Assembly (NCBI RefSeq): GCF_009818105.1
Contig: NZ_CP046564.1
Location: 3,720,001-3,784,000 of the forward strand
Direction of reading: 5' to 3'
Origin: Bacillus sp. N1-1
GTDB lineage: Bacteria > Bacillota > Bacilli > Bacillales > Guptibacillaceae
Length of the DNA: 64,000 nt
Shown here: positions 2,866-40,491 of the stretch, in pieces
Layout: each line of letters starts with the position of its first letter
How positions within the stretch are numbered: the first letter of the stretch is position 1
Made by a program: the position numbers and the translations under genes
Notes under the pieces: model-generated
Database searches by the model: none
What the model saw: only the letters and a program-made list of their open reading frames with translations
Told to the model about the DNA's origin: nothing

Positions 2866-3498
2866 ATGCTTACTTCATATTATACCGTTAAAAATGAGGG
2901 AGAAAACGAAATTGTGATACAAAAATCTCGGTTTATCGCTCACGTCAAACGAACACCAACAGAAGAAGAAGCTCAAGCATTTATTCAATCCATCAAAAAA
3001 AGACATGCTAGCGCCACACACAATTGCTCCGCCTACTTAATTGGTGAGCAGGATTTGGTTCAGAAGGCGAACGACGATGGTGAACCTTCCGGCACGGCTG
3101 GTGTGCCAATGCTTGAAGTGCTAAAAAAACGCAAACTAAAAGACACGACTGTAGTCGTTACCCGTTACTTTGGTGGCATTAAACTTGGTGCAGGCGGTTT
3201 AATTCGTGCGTATGGCCAATCCGTCTCAGAAGGGCTAAACGCAACGGGAATCGTCGAACGAAAGTTGATGACGAAAATAACGACTCAAATTGATTATACT
3301 TTATTAGGTAAAGTCGAAAACGAAATCCGTACATCGAATTATTTATTAGATGAGATTGCGTATTTGGAGAATGTTCAAGTTCGAACCCTTGTTGAAAGTG
3401 GGATGGAGGAAAGCTTTACTGAATGGATGACCAATATCGCAAATGGACAAGCAACGATAACCATGGGGGAACAGTTATATAAAGAGTATGACGTGTAA
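2866..3498 (+). CDS. yvyE: YvyE/YigZ (IMPACT) family protein
   Basis: This 210-residue protein has the UPF0029/IMPACT N-terminal domain (RFIAHVKRT, THNCSAYLIGE, DDGEPSGTAGVP, VVVTRYFGGIKLGAGGLIRAYG) and a C-terminal DUF1949 ferredoxin-like domain. Biochemical function is uncertain; relatives in eukaryotes and E. coli are linked to translation control. The start at ATG 2866 is supported by GGAGG 8 bases upstream and by the family's conserved MLTSYYTV start; an upstream in-frame ATG at 2791 has no support. It is divergent from degS, as in B. subtilis. Confidence 0.95.
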   Translation: MLTSYYTVKNEGENEIVIQKSRFIAHVKRTPTEEEAQAFIQSIKKRHASATHNCSAYLIGEQDLVQKANDDGEPSGTAGVPMLEVLKKRKLKDTTVVVTRYFGGIKLGAGGLIRAYGQSVSEGLNATGIVERKLMTKITTQIDYTLLGKVENEIRTSNYLLDEIAYLENVQVRTLVESGMEESFTEWMTNIANGQATITMGEQLYKEYDV

Positions 3499-25082: not shown

Positions 25083-28000
25083 TTACTTATTTAACCATTT
25101 GTTAAATTTATCTTTCACATCTTTGTTTACAGCACTGTCACCACCAAGAACTTTCGCTCCTGATACATCTGTTGTTGTAAAGTACTTAACAAGATAAGAT
25201 TCAATCTCTTTCGGGATTTCATCGCTCTTCACAAGGAACATGCTACCTTTATCTTTCACAACAAGTGGTGCAGCTGCAAGGGCATCTGGGAAGTTCATGC
25301 CGTTAGCAACAAACAGTTGATCTGTATTTGTCCCAAGTTCTTTATGAATTTCTACAAGGGTACCGAATCGGTTTGCTCCAGCAAGGCGTTTTGTTGTAAG
25401 CGATAACTCATCAGCCATATCAACAACCTCATCAGAGATGACCGCATCTCCACCTAGCACGTAAACTTGCTTTCCAGCCATTACCTTTTTCGCATCTTCC
25501 GTAAGCGTTTTGCCATCCGTCAAGACAATTGGCATATCATTTGCACCTGCGATAGATGCAGCACTCAAGGCATCTGCGAAGTTTGTTCCTGTCGCAAGGA
25601 AGACAGCTTCGCTTGTCGCACCTTTTTCAGCTAGTTTATTAATAATCTGAACGTTCGTATCATAACGAGTATTTCCGCTAAGTCGTTCAATATCAGCTGT
25701 ACTTACGCCTATGTTCGCAAGCTGCGTAGTTACTTTCTTCGAGATTGCATTTTCACCACCAAGAATCATCACATTCTTAGCTTTAAGGCGAGAAATCTCG
25801 TTTAGAACCTCATCAGAAAGCATACCGTCTTTATTAGCAAGCAAAATTGGGGCATCGTATGCACTTGCTAACGGACCAGCAGATAGTGCATCTGGGAAGT
25901 TAAAACCAGTTGCGATAAACACCGTATCCACGGTTGTTCCTTCAGGATACATCTGTTTTGATACTTCGATTGCCGTTTCAAAACGAGTGTCCCCAGCTAC
26001 CACTTCTACCATATCGCCATCAGTTTCAACCGGCACGATCGAAAGCACTTCACCTGTCGCTTTATCTTTCAAGAAAATTCCAGCTGTATACTTACCGCTA
26101 ACTTCTGGTGTCGTGATTTTCACATCAGTTGTTGCTTTCTTACCTACTCCTAAATCAAAGCTGGATTTACCAGTTACTTCAATTTTACCAGCGCCTTCTT
26201 CTCCAGCCTCAAGTACTTTCGCTTCTGTAACAGAGAAATCAAAATCTGTCGTTTCTCCAACCGTTGAATAACCGTCGACGCGAATGGTGTATTCACCATC
26301 TGGAAGGTTTTTCACAGAGAATGATTCTTCAGAATCACCGTCCGCATCAATGGCAATATAATCTCCAATTGTTTTACCATCTTTTGAACGATAGAGATAA
26401 AGATCAAGGTCATCACCAGCATCGTTCGTATTGCCAATTGCTACATCAAGAGAAATGTTATTTTTAAGGGTAATCGTTTTATCGTAGACACCGCCATCAG
26501 CAACAGTTTCTCTAGATTTATCCGTTTCCGGCTTACTAAATGCACCGCCTACTACTTCTACTGAACGTTTCGTAGATAAGTAGTTTTCAAACGTAACAGA
26601 TTGAGATACTTCACTACCAGGCATTACGCTACCAAGTTCAATTCTACCGGGGCTAGCAACAACATCCTGGACGAATGCTTCTAGCTTAAACTTGTTCATT
26701 TCCAAACCATCTTGTGGACCAGCTGTTCCATAAACAGCTACTTCCCAAACACCTGATTTAGGACTTTTAGCAACATAATCTTCTACTCCAAGACCATCAT
26801 AACCCGCATACCCTTGAAATGCGTTAACCTGATCTCCATCAGGATTCATAACAAGCATGCGCACACGTCCCTGGAACTCATCGTTTTCTTTAAGAGCTTC
26901 CAGTGCAAATCGTACTTCTTGCGCTCCTTCTTCTACATTAAAGAAGTAACTCTTTGTTTTTGAAGACTGAACTTCATCTTCATGGGTTAAGCGGAATCGA
27001 TCTTCAGACGTAAAGTCTTCTCCAAGTACGATTGTCTGGAATGAACGAGCTTCTGCATAAGCCGTATCTGGATCATCGATTAATAGTGTACCAGCGTTTA
27101 CGCCAATCTCCATCTTGCTCTTATCATATTTCACAGTCATTTCTTTAAACTCACCAGGCGCAAGCTTAATACTACTAACGGAAGGAGTAAACCAATCAGA
27201 ATTTGAAGAAATGTTTAGGTTCTTCGTTTCATCCGTTGGGTTTTCTACCATGACCGTTACTTCTTCAGGAACTTCTTTGTTGCGAACATAAAGTCCTGGT
27301 CCACCCGAAACTTTCTCACCATGGTAAACCGTAACATTTACTTCCTTCACTTCATTGATATAATGCTTACGAATGTATTCATAAGCTGCTGGGACATCGA
27401 TTAGTCCAGCACCTTCTTCTACGCGATTATATCCATCAACATGTACAGCTGTTTGAATCAATGCTTCACGAGCAAGTTCATAATCAAAAGGAATACGATC
27501 CTTCAGCGCTGCTTGTTTTAATGTTGCTACTGCACCAGCTACATATGGAGAGGACATACTTGTTCCTTGAAGCACTTCGTAATTACCTAAATGCAATGGG
27601 AATGAAGCATAAGCAGATCCCGGTGCCACGAAGTCTGGTTTTTGTTGACCATCTTCTGTTGGTCCGTTTGCCGAGAAGTACCATAGGCCTTCACCTTGAA
27701 CTGGAGAACCATCCGAATTCTTTCCATAAGGATAGTAACCATATTCAGTTGCCCACATTTTACTGTTAATATATGCCCCGATCGAAAGAGCTTTCATTCC
27801 ATCACCAGGAGCACCTACAGAATCCACACCAGGTCCATCATTACCAGCAGAAGTGACATAAATCGTATCGAATAGCTCACCCATATCTTCAATAATTTTC
27901 GCATATGCACCTGATCCGTCGTTGAGATCTGGTGAAGAGCCAAGGCTCATGTTCACAACATCTGTACCAAATCCACCCAATTCTTCAGGGACAGCTGCAA

Positions 28001-29231
28001 GATACATTGCATTCGCAATACTCCATCCGTACGTTCTGCCAGCAGAATCAAATACTTTTAAACCATATAGATCTGCACCAGGAGCCACCCCTTCTGCAGC
28101 TACAGCCCCAGTTTCATTTTCATTTGCAGGACCATTTGCTGCTGTAATTCCCGATACATGTGTTCCGTGACCATCTCCATCAAAGAAAACTGTAGCTACT
28201 GGGAATGGATAAAGAGTTGAATCTGGAAATTCATGTCCAGGATACGTTGGGCTAGGGCTAGCAATCCTAAAGTTAGCACCTTCTACTTCATCATCAGGAT
28301 TAAGGTCCATGTTATCAACATCGCCTTCTCCATACGCCTTTTCATCAGTGAAGTCTTTATCCTGATCAACGTCAATATAGACTTGATCGTCTACCAGAAG
28401 AACATCAAAATTAGCATCTCCTGTTCCATCTCCATTTAAGTCTCTATATAAAGGCTTTCCTTCTCCATCAACATCATATGAGGCTGGATTCAACGTACCG
28501 AAATAATATGTATCGTCTTCAGCATCGATACCTTCTGTTTTATATGTGCCCTCTTCTACAGTAATAGAGTCGTCCTCAGCTACTTCTTGCTGGAACCAAA
28601 CGTCTCCTTCTCCAACTGTATCAACGACGCCTTTGATTTTAGAAGAAACAACTTCGCCTTCTTTATTATATTGAGTAAAGGCTTCATGACCAGGATCGAC
28701 ACCTGTGTCAATAATCCCCACTTTTACTCCTGTTCCATCATATTTATCGTGAAACTCATCAACACCAGTTGCCGAATGAGTTTCTTCAGTTGCAGGTTTT
28801 ACCACATCTTCAGGGTTTTTAACTTTTGGTTTAAGATCAGTATCTTCTTTTGCACCTTCATCCAGCACGATTTCACTGTTCGCTCCAAGCATGCCAACAG
28901 AATCTAGACGATAGACTTGGAGAACTTTACTTGTGGGAACTTCAGCAAGATACAAGTAATTGTTTGTATTTTTCTTTACTTTCACGCCAAGTTTCTCAAG
29001 TTCTTTTGTAAGGTCAGGTCCTCCATGTTCATTTGCAACAATAATTAATTCCTGTTTTGATTGTTCACTTGCAGCAAGTGAGGCAATCTCCTGCGTAACA
29101 GGAAGCTTAAATTTCTTCGTTTCTGATAAAGCAGCCTCAGCCTTTTCTGGATTATACGTCATTCCCGCGAATGAAGAAGCAACAAGAGAAGCACCTGCAA
29201 CAATAGTCAGGACTTTTTTCTTAAACGTCAT
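25083..29231 (-). CDS. Large secreted S8 subtilase with three C-terminal cwbr2 repeats
   Basis: A 1382-residue secreted protease. Signal peptide about 1-34; inhibitor-like propeptide about 58-125; S8 catalytic domain with Asp175 (VGIIDTGVD), His355 (DGDGHGTHVSG), Asn464 (SAGNDGPG) and Ser558 (GTSMSSPYVAG). Asp and His are 180 residues apart, far more than the usual 35-70, as in tripeptidyl-peptidase II-type subtilases. The insert (about 200-345) is rich in Asp, with NGDG-type and DVDQDKDF calcium-like loops. After it come Ig-like/DUF domains, a PPC-like domain (LDLYLYRSKDG, GEYTIRVDGYSTVG; about 950-1010) and three cwbr2 repeats (about 1085-1380). Vpr/Epr-like role in extracellular protein breakdown or wall turnover. 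Confidence 0.94.
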   Translation of the reverse strand: MTFKKKVLTIVAGASLVASSFAGMTYNPEKAEAALSETKKFKLPVTQEIASLAASEQSKQELIIVANEHGGPDLTKELEKLGVKVKKNTNNYLYLAEVPTSKVLQVYRLDSVGMLGANSEIVLDEGAKEDTDLKPKVKNPEDVVKPATEETHSATGVDEFHDKYDGTGVKVGIIDTGVDPGHEAFTQYNKEGEVVSSKIKGVVDTVGEGDVWFQQEVAEDDSITVEEGTYKTEGIDAEDDTYYFGTLNPASYDVDGEGKPLYRDLNGDGTGDANFDVLLVDDQVYIDVDQDKDFTDEKAYGEGDVDNMDLNPDDEVEGANFRIASPSPTYPGHEFPDSTLYPFPVATVFFDGDGHGTHVSGITAANGPANENETGAVAAEGVAPGADLYGLKVFDSAGRTYGWSIANAMYLAAVPEELGGFGTDVVNMSLGSSPDLNDGSGAYAKIIEDMGELFDTIYVTSAGNDGPGVDSVGAPGDGMKALSIGAYINSKMWATEYGYYPYGKNSDGSPVQGEGLWYFSANGPTEDGQQKPDFVAPGSAYASFPLHLGNYEVLQGTSMSSPYVAGAVATLKQAALKDRIPFDYELAREALIQTAVHVDGYNRVEEGAGLIDVPAAYEYIRKHYINEVKEVNVTVYHGEKVSGGPGLYVRNKEVPEEVTVMVENPTDETKNLNISSNSDWFTPSVSSIKLAPGEFKEMTVKYDKSKMEIGVNAGTLLIDDPDTAYAEARSFQTIVLGEDFTSEDRFRLTHEDEVQSSKTKSYFFNVEEGAQEVRFALEALKENDEFQGRVRMLVMNPDGDQVNAFQGYAGYDGLGVEDYVAKSPKSGVWEVAVYGTAGPQDGLEMNKFKLEAFVQDVVASPGRIELGSVMPGSEVSQSVTFENYLSTKRSVEVVGGAFSKPETDKSRETVADGGVYDKTITLKNNISLDVAIGNTNDAGDDLDLYLYRSKDGKTIGDYIAIDADGDSEESFSVKNLPDGEYTIRVDGYSTVGETTDFDFSVTEAKVLEAGEEGAGKIEVTGKSSFDLGVGKKATTDVKITTPEVSGKYTAGIFLKDKATGEVLSIVPVETDGDMVEVVAGDTRFETAIEVSKQMYPEGTTVDTVFIATGFNFPDALSAGPLASAYDAPILLANKDGMLSDEVLNEISRLKAKNVMILGGENAISKKVTTQLANIGVSTADIERLSGNTRYDTNVQIINKLAEKGATSEAVFLATGTNFADALSAASIAGANDMPIVLTDGKTLTEDAKKVMAGKQVYVLGGDAVISDEVVDMADELSLTTKRLAGANRFGTLVEIHKELGTNTDQLFVANGMNFPDALAAAPLVVKDKGSMFLVKSDEIPKEIESYLVKYFTTTDVSGAKVLGGDSAVNKDVKDKFNKWLNK

Positions 29232-29460
29232 TTAGTAAAATCCCCCTTAATAGTTTGTGAAATCCCTACAATCGATCCCCCTTTTACGTGAAACAATTAT
29301 AACAATTCACTATTTTCAGTTTAATTATAAAGAGATTAAGAGTCAATCTTTAACTGTTAAAATTGTGAAATTTTTTGATAATTTGTAGATATTTTAGGAC
29401 TTTTGTCCATAAAAGCGAAATAATTCCGTAATGATAAAACATGATGGTTAATTTATTAAA

Positions 29461-29491
29461 AAAAACGCAGCGTCAATGACGCTACGTTTTT
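29461..29491 (-). terminator. Terminator overlapping the stop of the 697-residue subtilase
   Basis: Stem AAAACG, one mismatch, AGCGTC / GACGCT, one mismatch, CGTTTT around AAT, with A and T runs; the TAA stop at 29490-29492 lies in its foot. Confidence 0.9.
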
Positions 29492-31583
29492 AATCATCAA
29501 GAAGTTGATCGATATGCCAAGCTTTTGTCTCACTAATCGCAGCTGGCCCACCTAAAATACGGTAGTTACTCACTCCTTGATTATTTAAATATAAGATAGA
29601 CTTATTTAATGCTTCATTTTCTCTATCCGGATGAACGATGATAATCGATTGACCTGATCTTGATGCAGCTGCTCCACCAGTGAGGGCATCTGGAAACTTA
29701 AGCCCTGTGGCAAAATAAATTCCATCACTCTCTTCTTCTATTCCAAACCTTAATAAGACTTTAAAGTTTGTATCAAATCGATCTTCTCCACCGATTCGCT
29801 CTGAGTCCAAGGATGGAATTTCAGAAAGCACACTTTTACCGATAACTGTTTCGCCGCCGATCACATATGTTTTTTTGAGACCTAGCTCGTTTAAATAAGC
29901 TTTCGTAGCATCAGGTAAAGAATCACTTTTTGTAAAAAGAACAGGAGATTCAAACCTTGACGCAAAAGAGGAAATAGACAAAGCATCTGGAAAATTTTCT
30001 CCTGAAACGATAAAAGCTTCCGTTGTTTTTTCGTTTGCAACGATTTTCGCAATTTCAGTAGCCGTTTCATAACGATTATCTCCAGCGATTCTCGTTGTTG
30101 CTATTCCCTCCGATTTCAACTGATCTACAATAGCTTCAGGAAGGGCATTTTCACCACCAATTATTAAAACATGATTGGCAGAAAGGCGATTTAATTCATC
30201 TAGGACGCTCTTCGACAAAACACTTTTTTTCGATAATAATATTGGACTTCCTAGTTTAGAAGCAAGAGGCGAGGCTGCTAAACTATCTGGAAATGCATCA
30301 GAACGAGCGAGCACGACAAATTTACCATTTATATTCTTCCCATCAATTTGAACAGTCTGTTGATCCAGTGCATTCCAGCTGTTTTGGGATATTTCAATAG
30401 CCGTCTCAATAGATGTCTCACCATATATACGATTGTACTCTGTCACGCTTGTGATAGCCGCTTCAACATTTAAGAGACCACTACCGAGTTGATAAGAGCC
30501 AGCGAGAGGATCAGCAGTTTCTTTTAGTAGTTTAACTGTTTGTTTGTTTGTTAAATACGGTGCATACGTCTTTAATAAAACCCCTGATGAAGCGACAATT
30601 GGAGCAGACATGCTCGTCCCTTTATCATAAGCGTAATCCCCTTCTAAAGAGGTGCTATAAATATCTGTTCCAGGGGCAGCGAGATCTACGAGAGAGCCGT
30701 AATTGGAAAAGGATGCTTTCTCTTTACTACCTGTCTGAACAGAAGCGACTGCTATTACTTCCGGATAGGCTGCTGGAAAAACTACTGCTGAATCGTTGTC
30801 GTTACCCGCAGCACCCACCATCAAGATGTCTTTTGCTGCCGCTTCCTCAATTACTGTTCTTAAAGCAAATGAATTATTATAGTTACCAAGACTTAAATTA
30901 ATCACATCAGCATCATGATCAATCGCATAGCGTATCCCTTCTACAACTGTTGATAAATTTCCCGTTCCGTTCTCCGTCACTTTTATCGGCATAATAGAAA
31001 CCCCACGCGCCGGAGAAGCAATCCCGATTTGGTTGTTTGTTACTGCTCCAATCAGCCCTGCAACTTTTGTGCCATGTCCATCTAAATCTTGAACCGACTG
31101 ATTATCATTCACAAGGTTAACCCCATCAATGAGATTGGCTTTTAGGTCTTGATGAGTAAGGTCAACACCCGAATCAATTACCGCAACCTTTGAAGAACTT
31201 TTTTGATTACCGACAAGCTCCCATCCATTTAGTAAATGAATCTGATCCATCCACGTTTTTTGATATGAAAGCAAAGCATCGTCTGGTAGATCAACATCCA
31301 TTAAATAAACTGGTTGATCTTTTTCTACATGCTTCACTTCACGGTTAGACTTCAAACGATCAATCGTTTCGTTGACTTCTTGCTCTGGCACTTCAATTAC
31401 TTCTACTTTAGTGGAATATTTGGAATGCCTTGAGGGACTTTTGGCTTCACCATATGTAACAAGGATACGCTCTGTTTCTTGATCTGATTGTGCTTCAGAG
31501 ACTATAGGAGCCAAAGGGAATAATAGAATAAAGGACATTAAAAGAATAATAGTTTTACTTTTCAGTTGTGACACCTCTTCCAT
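29490..31583 (-). CDS. Secreted subtilase (S8) with three cwbr2 repeats
   Basis: A protein of up to 697 residues with a signal peptide (KSKTIILLMSFILLFPLAP), a short I9-type propeptide (ERILVTYGEAK to EKDQPVYL), and an S8 domain with Asp137 (AVIDSGVD), His170 (DLDGHGTKVAG), Asn261 (GAAGNDND) and Ser324 (KGTSMSAPIV). Three cwbr2 repeats fill about 380-697. Start choice is open: ATG 31583 has no ribosome site, whereas AAGAGGTG sits 6 bases before an in-frame CTG at 31565-31563 that would directly begin the signal peptide; a GTG at 31574 is also in frame. Wall-anchored protease; target unknown. It is divergent from the NprR-like regulator across about 500 bases. Confidence 0.93.
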   Translation of the reverse strand: MEEVSQLKSKTIILLMSFILLFPLAPIVSEAQSDQETERILVTYGEAKSPSRHSKYSTKVEVIEVPEQEVNETIDRLKSNREVKHVEKDQPVYLMDVDLPDDALLSYQKTWMDQIHLLNGWELVGNQKSSSKVAVIDSGVDLTHQDLKANLIDGVNLVNDNQSVQDLDGHGTKVAGLIGAVTNNQIGIASPARGVSIMPIKVTENGTGNLSTVVEGIRYAIDHDADVINLSLGNYNNSFALRTVIEEAAAKDILMVGAAGNDNDSAVVFPAAYPEVIAVASVQTGSKEKASFSNYGSLVDLAAPGTDIYSTSLEGDYAYDKGTSMSAPIVASSGVLLKTYAPYLTNKQTVKLLKETADPLAGSYQLGSGLLNVEAAITSVTEYNRIYGETSIETAIEISQNSWNALDQQTVQIDGKNINGKFVVLARSDAFPDSLAASPLASKLGSPILLSKKSVLSKSVLDELNRLSANHVLIIGGENALPEAIVDQLKSEGIATTRIAGDNRYETATEIAKIVANEKTTEAFIVSGENFPDALSISSFASRFESPVLFTKSDSLPDATKAYLNELGLKKTYVIGGETVIGKSVLSEIPSLDSERIGGEDRFDTNFKVLLRFGIEEESDGIYFATGLKFPDALTGGAAASRSGQSIIIVHPDRENEALNKSILYLNNQGVSNYRILGGPAAISETKAWHIDQLLDD

Positions 31584-31728: not shown

Positions 31729-31878
31729 TTATACACGTTCATGGAGAAGGTTCTGATGCTGTTGTTGAAGCGTTTGAAGTTTTTCCTCGAGGTTATGCTG
31801 TTCTTTTCTCATACTCCCTATGATTTGGATTAAACTCGTAATCATTGTTTCTACACGTTCAATTCGATCTTCTTGCAA
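31729..31878 (-). CDS. Small coiled-coil protein (49 aa), TTG start
   Basis: A 49-residue frame starts at TTG 31878 with a near-perfect Shine-Dalgarno AAAAGGAGGTG 6 bases upstream. The product is strongly helical and amphipathic (QEDRIERVETMITSLIQII, then RKEQHNLEEKLQTLQQQ), with heptad-like spacing and no Cys, signal or membrane segment. No family was recognised. It lies alone between the subtilase and the NprR-like regulator genes, on the same strand as the subtilase and 145 bases upstream of it. No terminator was seen after it, so it may share a transcript with the protease. The flanking 31879-32093 holds no other frame with a good site. Confidence 0.6.
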   Translation of the reverse strand: MQEDRIERVETMITSLIQIIGSMRKEQHNLEEKLQTLQQQHQNLLHERV

Positions 31879-32093
31879 ATTCGACACCTCCTTTTCATTT
31901 TCATCATTTTACCATATAATGGTCAGTATCGATCCGAAATTCTTTCGACATTTTTATGTTAGGAAAGTATTTTCAAAAACTGGCGATTAAACGCTATAAA
32001 TTCGTCCATATTTCCCAACCTCAAAACTATTCTCTTTTCTGAGAATTTTTAGTAAACTGTAATCAAATAGTTCTAGGAGAAAGGAAGCAAAGA

Positions 32094-33356
32094 ATGATTG
32101 GAGCAAAAATCCGATACTTCAGGCAGATGAAAGGCATCACACAAGAACAACTCGCTTCCGGAATCTGTTCTATTCCGTATTTAAGTAAAATTGAACACGG
32201 TCTTGCCCAGCCAAGTGAAGAACTTGTTGGACATCTTTGCAAAGAGTTAGGCGTTTCCCTAGATCAGGTTGATGACGAGGATAAAATGAACAAACTTCAC
32301 AATGATCTAGACTCCTGGTATAAAGAAATGCGTCTAAGAAACTTTGAAGAAGTTGTTAGTTACAAAAACCTGATAGACGAAGAAATTGATGGTGTAGAAG
32401 ATCCTGATATGCTCACAAAATATCTACTCTTAACATTTAGATACCATATTTTATTTAGAGAAACTGATAAAGCGAATGATATTTTAGAGAGATTATATCA
32501 TGTACAGGAAAGGCTTTCTGAAAATCTTGAGTACTTTTATTTTTACTTTCTTGGACTGTACTACTATCAAAATCGAAAGTTCCGTGAAGCCGGTGAAAAG
32601 TACAAAAAAGCAAATAAACTTTTAATGTCTATGAAATCGAATAATGCCGAATGGGCTGAATTTTATTATCAACAAGCACTTGTCCACAATCGTCTTAGTC
32701 AAATTACACTTTCAAACAATTTAGCGATTAAGTGTCTTGATTTATTTAACAAAGAGTACAACTTCAAACGCGCTGCTGATACAGAAATTCTTCTAGGTGT
32801 TAATAATAGAGTTATCTTAAACTATGGAGAAGCAGAACACCATTTTCAAAATGCATTAAAGTACGCTGAATCCTTTAATGATAAACGACTTAAAAGCATC
32901 ATATATCATGATCTAGGCTATGTTTATTCTTGTCAAAATGAATCTAAAGTAGCTCTAGAGTACTACCACTCTGGTCTTCAAAATAATGAAGATCACGAAA
33001 TAGAAGATCGAGCAAAAACAGTTTATCTTATTGCTACAGAGTACCTTAAAATAAATGATACAAAATTAGCCAAACACTGGATTGAAGAAGGTATGAGAAT
33101 TGTTAAGAAGACCGAATTTCTTGAATATATATACCACTACAATATCCTTGAATTAAAACTCAATGATATTGAAGATGAATATACAGAGTTGGCTTTAAAA
33201 GATGCTGTTAACTATTTCAAAGAAAAAAATTATTGGAATTATGTATCTGAATATGGGGAAATGCTGGCTGATTACTATTTTAATAGTGGTCAATATAAAA
33301 ACTCCAGCTTTTACTTTAAACTAGCCAATGATGCTAGAAAAAAAATTATGAATTAG
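32094..33356 (+). CDS. HTH-TPR peptide-sensing regulator (RRNPP/NprR-like)
   Basis: A 420-residue cytoplasmic regulator. Residues about 1-60 form an HTH_3 domain of the PlcR/NprR style (IGAKIRYFRQMKGITQEQLA, GICSIPYLSKIEHGLAQPSEE). The rest is all-helical tetratricopeptide repeats (about 90-415; YYYQNRKFREAGEKYKKA, YGEAEHHFQNALKYAE, DLGYVYSCQNESKVALEYY, YFNSGQYKNSSFYFKLA). The length is close to NprR (about 423). In this family an exported, processed and reimported oligopeptide binds the TPR domain. AGGAG-AAAGGAAG precedes ATG 32094. A small secreted propeptide gene follows 15 bases after its stop, as in nprR-nprX. Targets are unknown; the divergent subtilase is a candidate. Confidence 0.88.
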   Translation: MIGAKIRYFRQMKGITQEQLASGICSIPYLSKIEHGLAQPSEELVGHLCKELGVSLDQVDDEDKMNKLHNDLDSWYKEMRLRNFEEVVSYKNLIDEEIDGVEDPDMLTKYLLLTFRYHILFRETDKANDILERLYHVQERLSENLEYFYFYFLGLYYYQNRKFREAGEKYKKANKLLMSMKSNNAEWAEFYYQQALVHNRLSQITLSNNLAIKCLDLFNKEYNFKRAADTEILLGVNNRVILNYGEAEHHFQNALKYAESFNDKRLKSIIYHDLGYVYSCQNESKVALEYYHSGLQNNEDHEIEDRAKTVYLIATEYLKINDTKLAKHWIEEGMRIVKKTEFLEYIYHYNILELKLNDIEDEYTELALKDAVNYFKEKNYWNYVSEYGEMLADYYFNSGQYKNSSFYFKLANDARKKIMN

Positions 33357-33371
33357 AAAGGAAGAAAATCT

Positions 33372-33509
33372 ATGAAAAAATTTCTTATTAACATGCTATT
33401 AGTTACTGGTGTTGTTGGAATGGTTATTGTACCTAATCATGATAAGGTGCCAGATTCTCATGACAAAGTACCTGACTCAAGCCCATCAAAAACTGAAATT
33501 CATATGTAA
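33372..33509 (+). CDS. Small secreted signalling propeptide with duplicated HDKVPDS, partner of the NprR-like regulator
   Basis: A 45-residue frame with AAAGGA 9 bases before ATG 33372. The N-terminus is a signal peptide (KK at 2-3, hydrophobic core to about residue 20). The exported part carries HDKVPDS twice in tandem (residues 23-29 and 30-36), then a short SPSKTEIHM tail. At DNA level (33438-33458 and 33459-33479) six of the seven codons differ at the third base while no amino acid changes, a pattern of selection on the peptide. NprX, the ligand of NprR in the B. cereus group, is SKPPDIVG; the KxPD core is shared. The mature form is inferred. It is cotranscribed with the receptor and closed by a terminator. 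Confidence 0.82.
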   Translation: MKKFLINMLLVTGVVGMVIVPNHDKVPDSHDKVPDSSPSKTEIHM

Positions 33510-33516
33510 TAATCGG

Positions 33517-33543
33517 AACCCGGCTTATTTTAGCCGGGTTTTT
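33517..33543 (+). terminator. Terminator of the regulator-propeptide operon
   Basis: Perfect 9-bp stem AACCCGGCT / AGCCGGGTT with a 6-base loop and T tail, 7 bases after the propeptide stop. Confidence 0.93.
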
Positions 33544-33609
33544 ATTTGCTCCGACTCCCCCCACAACGCTATACTAAACATAGTTTAACTAGAATAGGAG
33601 TGTGCTGAG

Positions 33610-39672: not shown

Positions 39673-39803
39673 ATGAAAAGGCACTGGAAAACACCTGAAG
39701 AAATTCAATATCAAAAAAACGCAAGGAAAAGATGCTTTTCCTTGCCATTCCTTTGTTATCGATTTTATAAGGGGTAAGCTTTGCTGTTCTAACGAATCGA
39801 TGA
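39673..39803 (+). pseudogene. Frameshifted paralogue of the 45-aa riboswitch-controlled membrane protein
   Basis: ATG 39673 (GAGGG upstream) reads MKRHWKTPEEIQY, close to MKESWLTPEEIQY of the protein at 40354. It then runs out of frame at a run of seven A (39713-39719) to a stop at 39777. If one A is added, the frame continues RKEKMLFLAIPL, matching RKEKMIYLLLPV of the intact copy, and then an in-frame TAA at 39768-39770. Beyond it the alignment still holds to about 39803 (GVSFAVLT versus GAAIAFLT). One frameshift plus one nonsense codon suggest decay; a sequencing error in the A run could explain only the first. Confidence 0.7.
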
Positions 39804-39920: not shown

Positions 39921-40210
39921 TAAGACCAACCTCCCTTCCACCTCTAGTCTTGTCTATCTTGATTTTTTCATGCGTAAATGGGTAAAAAAGCAGCTCGTAC
40001 TTACTGTAAAACGATTCGTACTTTAATCTAAACGGTTCCATCCGACATTGGGAAACCTGCTTTACAAATTCTTAATAAAGAGATGCATATTATAAGCATT
40101 TTCCCAATATACACGGTAAACAGAATAGGTTATACTTAGAATTGAAGTCATTTTTCGACAATTTTTACTTTTTCATGACACCGTTTACCTTATGACTACT
40201 TATAAATGTT
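39921..40210. other. Gene-free stretch upstream of the riboswitch
   Basis: No convincing reading frame. It contains a 9-bp inverted repeat, ATTGGGAAA at 40047-40055 and TTTCCCAAT at 40100-40108, with a short inner ATGC...GCAT pair. The riboswitch promoter should lie within about 40110-40205; a TATAAA is present at 40201, but no clear -35 element was identified. Confidence 0.5.
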
Positions 40211-40345
40211 CGAATCGTACGAGAATGGCAAAATCACTGAAAAGTGGTGACGCAAAGCTATAGGGACTTCACGGACTGTTAATCCGACAGTCAGCCAGCT
40301 GCCGAATACGGCCTCCGCTGCGATTTCAGCAAGAACCAGGGGGAG
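40211..40345 (+). promoter_or_regulatory. Cyclic di-GMP-I (GEMM-I) riboswitch with Shine-Dalgarno-sequestering platform
   Basis: P1 pairs CGTA (40216-40219) with TACG (40307-40310). P2 is ATCACT/AGTGGT (40233-40238, 40243-40248) capped by a GAAA tetraloop. It is followed by the hallmark GACGCAAAGC joining segment (40249-40258), a P3 arm, and the closing CAGCCAGCTGCCG. These are the conserved GEMM-I elements. After the aptamer, CCTCC (40312-40316) can pair with GGGGG (40339-40343) of the ribosome site, with an inner GCTG/CAGC stem (40317-40320, 40327-40330). This suggests translational control; whether ligand opens or closes the site is not decided here. A cGAMP-binding variant is also possible. 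Confidence 0.85.
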
Positions 40346-40353
40346 ATTTAATT

Positions 40354-40491
40354 ATGAAAGAATCATGGCTAACGCCTGAAGAAATCCAATATCGTAGACA
40401 GCGTAAGGAGAAGATGATTTATCTTTTGCTACCCGTGTCTGCTATCGTCATTGGAGCGGCTATTGCCTTTCTGACGCAAATGACTTACTAA
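40354..40491 (+). CDS. Small single-pass membrane protein (45 aa) under a c-di-GMP riboswitch
   Basis: ATG 40354 follows AGGGGGAG with 8-base spacing and lies 8 bases past the riboswitch platform. The 45-residue product has a conserved-looking soluble head (ESWLTPEEIQY), a basic patch (RRQRKEK) and one membrane helix (about 21-41, MIYLLLPVSAIVIGAAIAFL). The basic-in rule places the head in the cytoplasm. No known family was recognised. Being set by the riboswitch, its dose would follow cellular c-di-GMP, so a role in motility, attachment or wall biology is inferred. A broken relative lies 680 bases upstream. Confidence 0.82.
   Translation: MKESWLTPEEIQYRRQRKEKMIYLLLPVSAIVIGAAIAFLTQMTY

Follow-up and report, generated by a model that had tools for sequence, protein, structure and literature searches.

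An NprR-type quorum-sensing operon with a repeated signal, a putative paired operator, and a sensor-signal module apparently exchanged between species in the Pseudalkalibacillus/Guptibacillus group

Which kind of peptide-sensing system is encoded by a regulator gene followed closely by a gene for a small secreted peptide with a tandem repeat, which genes might it control, and how do its sensor and its signal evolve? These questions are raised by a locus of Bacillus sp. N1-1 that we analyzed within a stretch of 64,000 nucleotides (the window, to which the coordinates refer; Table 1). Altogether, our analysis makes it highly likely that this locus is an NprR-NprX-type quorum-sensing operon with a regulon of paired operators and with a sensor-signal cassette swapped between species. 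The genome of the window (G000) is a single 4.5-Mb contig, and searching it returned two other receptor matches, both limited to the HTH. The proteins closest to the receptor bear the source names Pseudalkalibacillus, Guptibacillus, and Bacillus hwajinpoensis, among others. Comparisons were made with 14 genomes of the genus (G000 and 13 others, hereafter the genus genomes) and with G014 of a sister genus; published papers are cited for the parts considered here.

Table 1. Features of the operon and of its putative operators and targets in the window
Feature	Position	Strand	Basis or remark
Putative bipartite operator, receptor promoter (TTAGGAAA 31959-31966 and TTTCCCAA 32011-32018)	31959..32018	.	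Starts 52 bp apart
NprR-type receptor, 420 aa (HTH, Rap-like N-terminal helices, TPR repeats)	32094..33356	+	Pfam, NprR profile match; ORF from ATG to TAG
Receptor HTH part, residues 1-62, near-invariant whatever the signal type within the genus	32094..32279	+	Protein alignment, HTH+promoter tree
Apparently exchangeable module, TPR sensor and propeptide up to the terminator	32280..33540	+	DNA identity drop and recovery, discordant trees, AU tests
45-aa propeptide whose N-terminus is basic, with a hydrophobic stretch	33372..33509	+	ORF from ATG to stop; equivalent position in 15/15 genomes
Pheromone copy 1, HDKVPDS	33438..33458	+	Sequence
Pheromone copy 2, HDKVPDS	33459..33479	+	Sequence
Intrinsic terminator (hairpin)	33515..33542	+	Fold prediction
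Second putative bipartite operator, exact	40048..40107	.	Equivalent site in 14/14 genus genomes
c-di-GMP-I riboswitch downstream of the second operator	40217..40306	+	Rfam RF01051, 71.8 bits
Putative target gene; its 45-aa product looks, by eye, like a membrane protein	40354..40491	+	ORF

The receptor combines the HTH_3 (2.3e-10), RapH_N (7.1e-7, above its cut-off), and TPR_2 (9.2e-9) domains of Pfam, i.e., the HTH, three-helix bundle, and TPR domain that define the NprR subfamily (PMC9765709), and it reached no NCBIfam model at its cut-off. Against the PDB, the receptor family profile matched NprR best (1e-59, the best Rap protein being at 1.4e-45; hhalign match to NprR of 99.9%) and thereby placed the TPR domain nearer NprR than Rap, whereas single-sequence phmmer ranked Rap proteins, not NprR, first among solved relatives; the TPR domain is ~23% identical to that of NprR. 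The adjacent small gene encodes a propeptide judged to be secreted by eye and by a simple rule. The HTH_3 domain sets the receptor apart from Rap proteins, and no match to the AimR model PF22871 was found in G000; one of the 14 genus genomes matches this model, at another locus. Architecture, profile match, and predicted targets thus place the pair, found in the Pseudalkalibacillus/Guptibacillus group, among the NprR-type systems of RRNPP regulators, and the kind of receptor is not new. The first-pass annotation had proposed that an NprR-like receptor is followed, in the same direction, by the gene of a secreted propeptide, which the domains, the profile match, and the propeptide of 15/15 genomes bear out; its further statement that the pair is "not of a classical named type" is not supported, given the NprR placement and the multi-copy NprX-type propeptides published in 2016 and 2022.

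The functional residues of NprR, described together with its Spo0F link (PMC4970707), are partly retained. D107, Y223, and F225 have conserved counterparts in the receptor family (D103, Y222, and F224), and W167 corresponds to F163, also aromatic, while Y118 and Y165 fall on T114 and R161, which do not match and are not conserved. R126, essential for NprX binding in NprR (PMC4970707), is represented by R122 (K in G003) in receptors with HDK or HDR signals and by L or Q in those with HEK or HER signals; E188 is aligned with W187, which is preceded immediately by a conserved E, and R343 aligns to a gap. Searches of mobile elements matched 20 phage records, none covering 80% of the query, and 94 plasmid records, of which 71 had one place covering at least 80%, all below 60% identity (below 30% among the 10 matches listed); they give no sign of a plasmid- or phage-borne receptor locus.

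The propeptide (MKKFLINMLLVTGVVGMVIVPNHDKVPDSHDKVPDSSPSKTEIHM) starts 15 bases past the receptor stop, in the same frame, and contains HDKVPDS twice. The layout already read in the first-pass annotation, receptor, 15 bases, 45-residue secreted frame, and terminator, was confirmed by the ORFs and by the energy of the hairpin with its surroundings (-19.5 kcal/mol, whereas shuffled sequences averaged -8.6; z -4.25), as were the two perfect tandem copies and the difference of six of seven codon pairs, each at the third base, the His codon alone being identical. Its suggestion that the peptide rather than the DNA is under selection is supported on a wider basis: HDKVPDS was preserved under six random substitutions in 3 of 400,000 simulations, and 14 copy pairs within genes (from the 10 genomes whose propeptide holds the signal two or three times; not mutually independent) differ at 47 nucleotides, of which 46 are third codon positions, and at one amino acid, F/V in G007. 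Moreover, both copies carry a K-to-R change in five genomes, and therefore copies change together. All 15 genomes keep the propeptide and the copies within a gene stay alike; neither of the contrary outcomes named in the first-pass annotation, relatives lacking a propeptide or freely varying repeat residues, was encountered among them. The repeat is real and under selection, and repeats of its kind have been published; the release of several identical peptides from one propeptide is plausible. Duplications of nprX were reported in 2016 (PMC5199041, including the S11D legend), and all 17 atypically large NprR propeptides of a 2022 study are repeated, with up to six copies in four subfamilies (PMC9765709, Table 3).

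Receptor matches were obtained in 93 of the 101 genomes searched (own genome included), many of them HTH-only, and a propeptide lies directly downstream of the receptor in the 14 genus genomes and in G014. The signal is HDKVPDS in two copies in G000, G012, and G013, HDRVPDS in two copies in G006, G008, G009, and G011, HDRFPDS followed by HDRVPDS in G007, a single HDRVPDS or HDRLPES in G003 and G010, a single HEKFPQS in G001, G004, and G005, HEKFPES in three copies in G002, and HERFPDS in three copies in G014. Other families encode DNSPGIK nine times (G059) or six times (G096), HESHPDP six times (G017), a DKHPDP type eight times (G100), DQHPDPT five times (G063), and a single DHPDPTG or EHPDP in further genomes. 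A protein search with the propeptide gave two matches only; at the locus level, a propeptide was called in all but 3 of 30 loci (none in L021, L023, and L029). Among the best 80 of 293 relatives from named Bacillales genomes, a simple rule called a propeptide at 68 loci, two calls (L138 and L178) looking spurious, and a repeat of at least five residues at 19. After removal of these two, receptor and signal similarity were correlated across 66 loci (Mantel r 0.71, reached by 0 of 999 permutations, relatedness not being corrected), with r 0.26 among distant pairs, a value without permutation test. In the module tree (14 genomes), receptor clade agrees with signal except that HDRVPDS accompanies receptors of both the G003 clade and the G006-G011 clade; hence signal and receptor types are not paired one to one. 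HEK-type receptors are 58 to 61% identical to those of the HDK/HDR types, and those of G002 are 83 to 84% identical to those of G001, G004, and G005.

Alignment of the upstream regions revealed, in the receptor promoter, the motif TTGGGAAA-N44-TTTCCCAA, in which inverted half-sites stand five helical turns apart. Their starts are separated by 52 bp in 14/14 genus genomes and by 53 bp in G014; both half-sites are exact in the other 13 genus genomes and in G014, and the window has one mismatch. Upstream of 16 more distant receptors, the exact pair occurs at 52 to 53 bp in seven and with one mismatch at 51 to 53 bp in three, and six have none. For the best 80 of 293 Bacillales relatives, an exact pair was present within 600 bp upstream of the receptor at 30 loci and lacking at 50, and 31 of the 37 exact forward-then-reverse pairs with starts 8 to 300 bp apart upstream of these 80 receptors fell at 51 to 54 bp. 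With a spacer of 40 to 50, the exact pair occupies 74 places in the genus genomes (reversed pattern, 0) and 52 in the other 87 genomes (reversed, 4); in the genus genomes, spacers of 10 to 39 yielded 4 places (reversed, 15) and spacers of 51 to 80 a single one (reversed, 1). A TTAA-like center and A/T-rich tracts are common to 53 distinct 60-bp sites. Outside the genus, a receptor match below 1e-45 was found in 16 of 21 site-bearing genomes versus 10 of 66 without sites (Fisher p 4.4e-7), and at a threshold of 1e-20 in 19 of 21 versus 30 of 66 (p 2.8e-4). These correlative data suggest that the putative operator belongs to the NprR-type receptor.

All 74 exact sites of the genus genomes could be assigned to genes downstream; since the target list was itself read from part of these sites, the absence of an unassigned site is partly by construction, but the 14/14 conservation and the fixed distances are not. 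The M4 neutral protease, the leading candidate target, has 17 sites ending 72 to 77 bp before the start and covering 14/14 genomes. The gene of a 298-aa protein (P298) and a 45-aa riboswitch gene have 14 sites each, likewise in 14/14 genomes, and the receptor has 13; some species add subtilases S8a (eight sites) and S8b (five), LysM and AimR have one site each, and another single site precedes an ABC permease gene, SodC being encoded on its opposite side. Seven additional S8 labels are weak secondary assignments of sites included in these numbers. In G000, the sites of the M4, P298, and riboswitch genes are exact and those of its own receptor promoter and of the LysM gene carry one mismatch; a single two-mismatch site compares with two control sites at equal looseness. 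At the 17 M4 promoters, one half-site runs into AATACA, with an extended -10-like element ~17 bp on (mostly TGTGATAAT or near), an arrangement resembling the layout of an activator that would touch RNA polymerase. Elsewhere, two-mismatch sites precede an M4-like gene in four of the six loci having one (two of the three Geobacillus loci, Anoxybacillus, and Rummeliibacillus). In Sutcliffiella, B. tianshenii, B. timonensis, and Salimicrobium, genes next to the receptor that are subtilase-like by motif have an exact site ahead of their called start or overlapping it.

Several of the genes behind these sites deserve a description of their own. The P298 gene (3187-4080 of locus L108, genome site C1:235504) follows the putative operator in 14/14 genus genomes; its product had no match in Pfam or NCBIfam and a chance-level one in the PDB (E 0.2), and the source name "S9 family peptidase" of one relative is not relied on. 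From 40048 to 40491 of the window, the putative operator, a c-di-GMP-I riboswitch, and the gene of the 45-aa, probably membrane-bound protein stand in series, as in 14/14 genus genomes, where the riboswitch (a GGC variant in G003) lies between the site and the gene and the homologous gene begins 229 to 247 bp past the operator; cell density and c-di-GMP may thus act together on this gene. An apparently degenerate second copy of this gene (MKRHWKTPEEIQYQK..., by eye) occupies 39673-39760. In locus L121 of G005, an exact operator motif (3018-3077) lies 104 bp before the start of an AimR-like gene (1735-2913), the only one found in the 14 genus genomes, which might link an arbitrium-like element to the signaling of its host.

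The phylogeny of the TPR domain and propeptide differs from those of rpoB and of the downstream genes, while the HTH and promoter keep the species signal. Compared with seven neighbor proteins (g0-g2, g4-g6, and g8), the receptor is less conserved between G000 and G008 (85% versus 89 to 98%) and between G004 and G006 (60% versus 90 to 96%), but more conserved between G000 and G013 (93% versus just 66 to 85%); G004, G001, and G005 have receptors 97 to 99% identical with downstream neighbors g4 and g5 at 82 to 89%. Left of the module (31960-32240), sister species retain 95 to 98% DNA identity, which drops at codon 63 to 53 to 55% in G004/G006, G013/G002, and G012/G002 (the last two comparisons not being independent) and is regained at 33540-33600, just beyond the terminator; in G000/G008 the drop is later and shallower, with no difference across receptor residues 1-62 and 33 of 90 residues differing at 271-360. 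Trees of rpoB (15 rows) and of the downstream DNA (14 rows) have the four tested species groups in common and place G001 differently, whereas the tree of TPR and propeptide clusters genomes by signal type. In AU tests, whose groups were chosen after inspecting the trees, the module DNA rejected the grouping of all eight group-A genomes (p 3.8e-16), of G012, G013, and G002 (p 0.0023), of G004 and G006 (p 2.3e-6), and of G000, G008, G009, and G011 (p 3.4e-10), and the downstream DNA rejected four signal-type groups (p 2.4e-39 to 6.9e-88); a fifth module test (G001, G004, G005, and G006; p 6.0e-33) is not counted because this group is not a clade in the rpoB tree. The HTH+promoter tree (281 columns) recovered three of the four species groups and did not resolve G004+G006. 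Since the abrupt shifts of identity fall at codon 63 and close to the terminator, sensor and signal look as if they had been exchanged between species as one cassette.

The region upstream has a history of its own. Two large secreted proteases, divergent from the receptor, are encoded at 25083-31583, the nearer being an S8 protease with CWB2 repeats (Pfam) and the farther subtilase-like by eye; their alleles are swapped between species independently of the receptor, and in a separate upstream exchange G009 and G011 carry g0-g2 nearest the G003/G010 type. Between protease and receptor, an ORF of 49 to 52 aa with a coiled-coil-like aspect (31729-31887, minus strand) was recognized by a simple rule in 10/15 genomes, the version of G010 being dissimilar.

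Beside the genes, the repeat, the conservation, the operator statistics, and the tree discordance, which are read directly from the sequences, we infer export, cutting, and import of the propeptide, binding, activation, and feedback. The propeptide would leave the cell by Sec and be cut at its repeats by extracellular proteases, and the HDKVPDS-type peptide would re-enter via an oligopeptide permease and bind the TPR groove. An oligomer of peptide-bound receptor would then bridge both half-sites and, at M4 promoters, where a weak -35 directly adjoins one half-site, should recruit RNA polymerase. Positive feedback is likely, as the secreted proteases that are the putative targets may take part in maturing the signal as well. 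While HTH and operators would hold the regulon constant, the swapping of the cassette among species would change who hears whom, not what is switched on.

Other readings have to be weighed against this NprR-type operon model. Several regulators of Bacillus proteases are known, any of which might own the paired operator, with the receptor gene merely among its targets; the operator evidence is entirely positional, two of the site-bearing genomes outside the genus have no receptor match better than 1e-20, and almost half of the site-less ones have such a match. We nevertheless judge another owner improbable, given the co-occurrence of site and receptor across families, the single narrow spacing of the exact sites upstream of receptors in the best-80 set, and the joint conservation of operator and HTH residues 1-62 while the remainder of the receptor is exchanged. 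The receptor could also act mainly as a Rap-like Spo0F phosphatase switched by the propeptide, with gene activation secondary, as the RapH_N domain, the top rank of Rap proteins in the single-sequence PDB search, and the conserved counterparts of D107, Y223, and F225 would allow; the HTH being the most conserved part, the operator set being tight, and the residues matching Y118 and Y165 not being conserved make this unlikely.

Likewise, we doubt that the second copy is a passing, functionless duplication and that a single copy would suffice. One recognizable copy is present in 5/15 genomes (G003, G010, G001, G004, and G005), but divergence between copies is almost purely synonymous, repeats recur in the best-80 set and reach nine copies in G059, and in two phage Rap-Phr systems duplicated Phr copies are matured by extracellular proteases and active (PMC11343458). 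The discordance, for its part, might reflect old alleles kept in parallel by trans-species balancing selection, with homogenization of the flanks, instead of recent module transfer. The distance between HEK-type and HDK/HDR-type receptors indeed makes the signal types old, and the HEK-type receptors of G002 have diverged from those of the other species group; the near-identity of the receptors of G004, G001, and G005, set against their far less similar g4 and g5, leaves this explanation somewhat unlikely. As a general rule, we lean toward the view that NprR-type receptors read TTGGGAAA-N44/45-TTTCCCAA with its TTAA-like center, graspable only by an oligomer over five turns, as the missing DNA code of the subfamily, and that sensor and signal are exchanged with a crossover at the HTH boundary, private protease signals turning over as in agr and comQXP.

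In the agr and ComQXPA systems, both based on membrane histidine kinases, signal and sensor covary between strains while the output is conserved; here, the swap boundary would fall inside one cytoplasmic transcription factor. Pherotype loci are documented for ComQXPA (PMC4408185). With NprR-NprX of the B. cereus group, the present system shares the receptor with HTH, Rap-like helices, and TPR, the co-directional secreted propeptide downstream, the neutral protease as leading target (predicted here from the shared putative operator), and a diversity of signals matched by their receptors, with seven pherotypes known there (PMC4147580). It differs by its signal, HDKVPDS in two copies and not SKPDIVG or a close variant, by the divergent TPR domain, and by a putative operator in the receptor's own promoter, the B. 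cereus-group nprR having been reported not to be autoregulated (PMC4147580). The first-pass annotation had written NprX as SKPPDIVG; with the published SKPDIVG (PMC4147580), the KxPD it saw in both signals is not exactly shared. Queried with the NprR TPR domain, neither the 101 genomes nor 19 genomes of the best match's family contained a close relative (best 37% in both). Rap-Phr systems, including Rap3T/Rap105, likewise pair a TPR receptor with an exported propeptide whose repeated pheromones are matured by extracellular proteases (PMC11343458), but Rap lacks the HTH; AimR-AimP arbitrium shares an HTH-TPR regulator and a small peptide, without an AimR match in G000. Repeat-bearing NprR-type propeptides resemble ours in holding several pheromone copies, and the parts examined of the papers on them (PMC5199041 and PMC9765709) describe no operator or module exchange.

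The new content is the putative bipartite operator with its predicted regulon and the apparent exchange of the sensor-signal cassette. No earlier account of either was found in the literature searched, mostly without subscription papers, so that a prior description is possible; within the parts covered, PMC3325205 contained no operator terms and PMC10075063 neither the operator nor the module exchange. The NprR family is broad in Bacillales, being present in 21 genera (PMC9765709), and its recognition sequence was still awaited in 2014, when NprR-NprX was described as binding around the -35 of nprA with the exact DNA sequence left to further experiments (review PMC4147580). A defined operator would make regulons readable from genomes and allow a direct binding test. 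A swap of sensing half and signal under a DNA-binding half that stays as it is would be a case of pherotype turnover within one cytoplasmic transcription factor, and it would allow one to test, in a single genus, why bacteria keep signals private when the proteases are shared.
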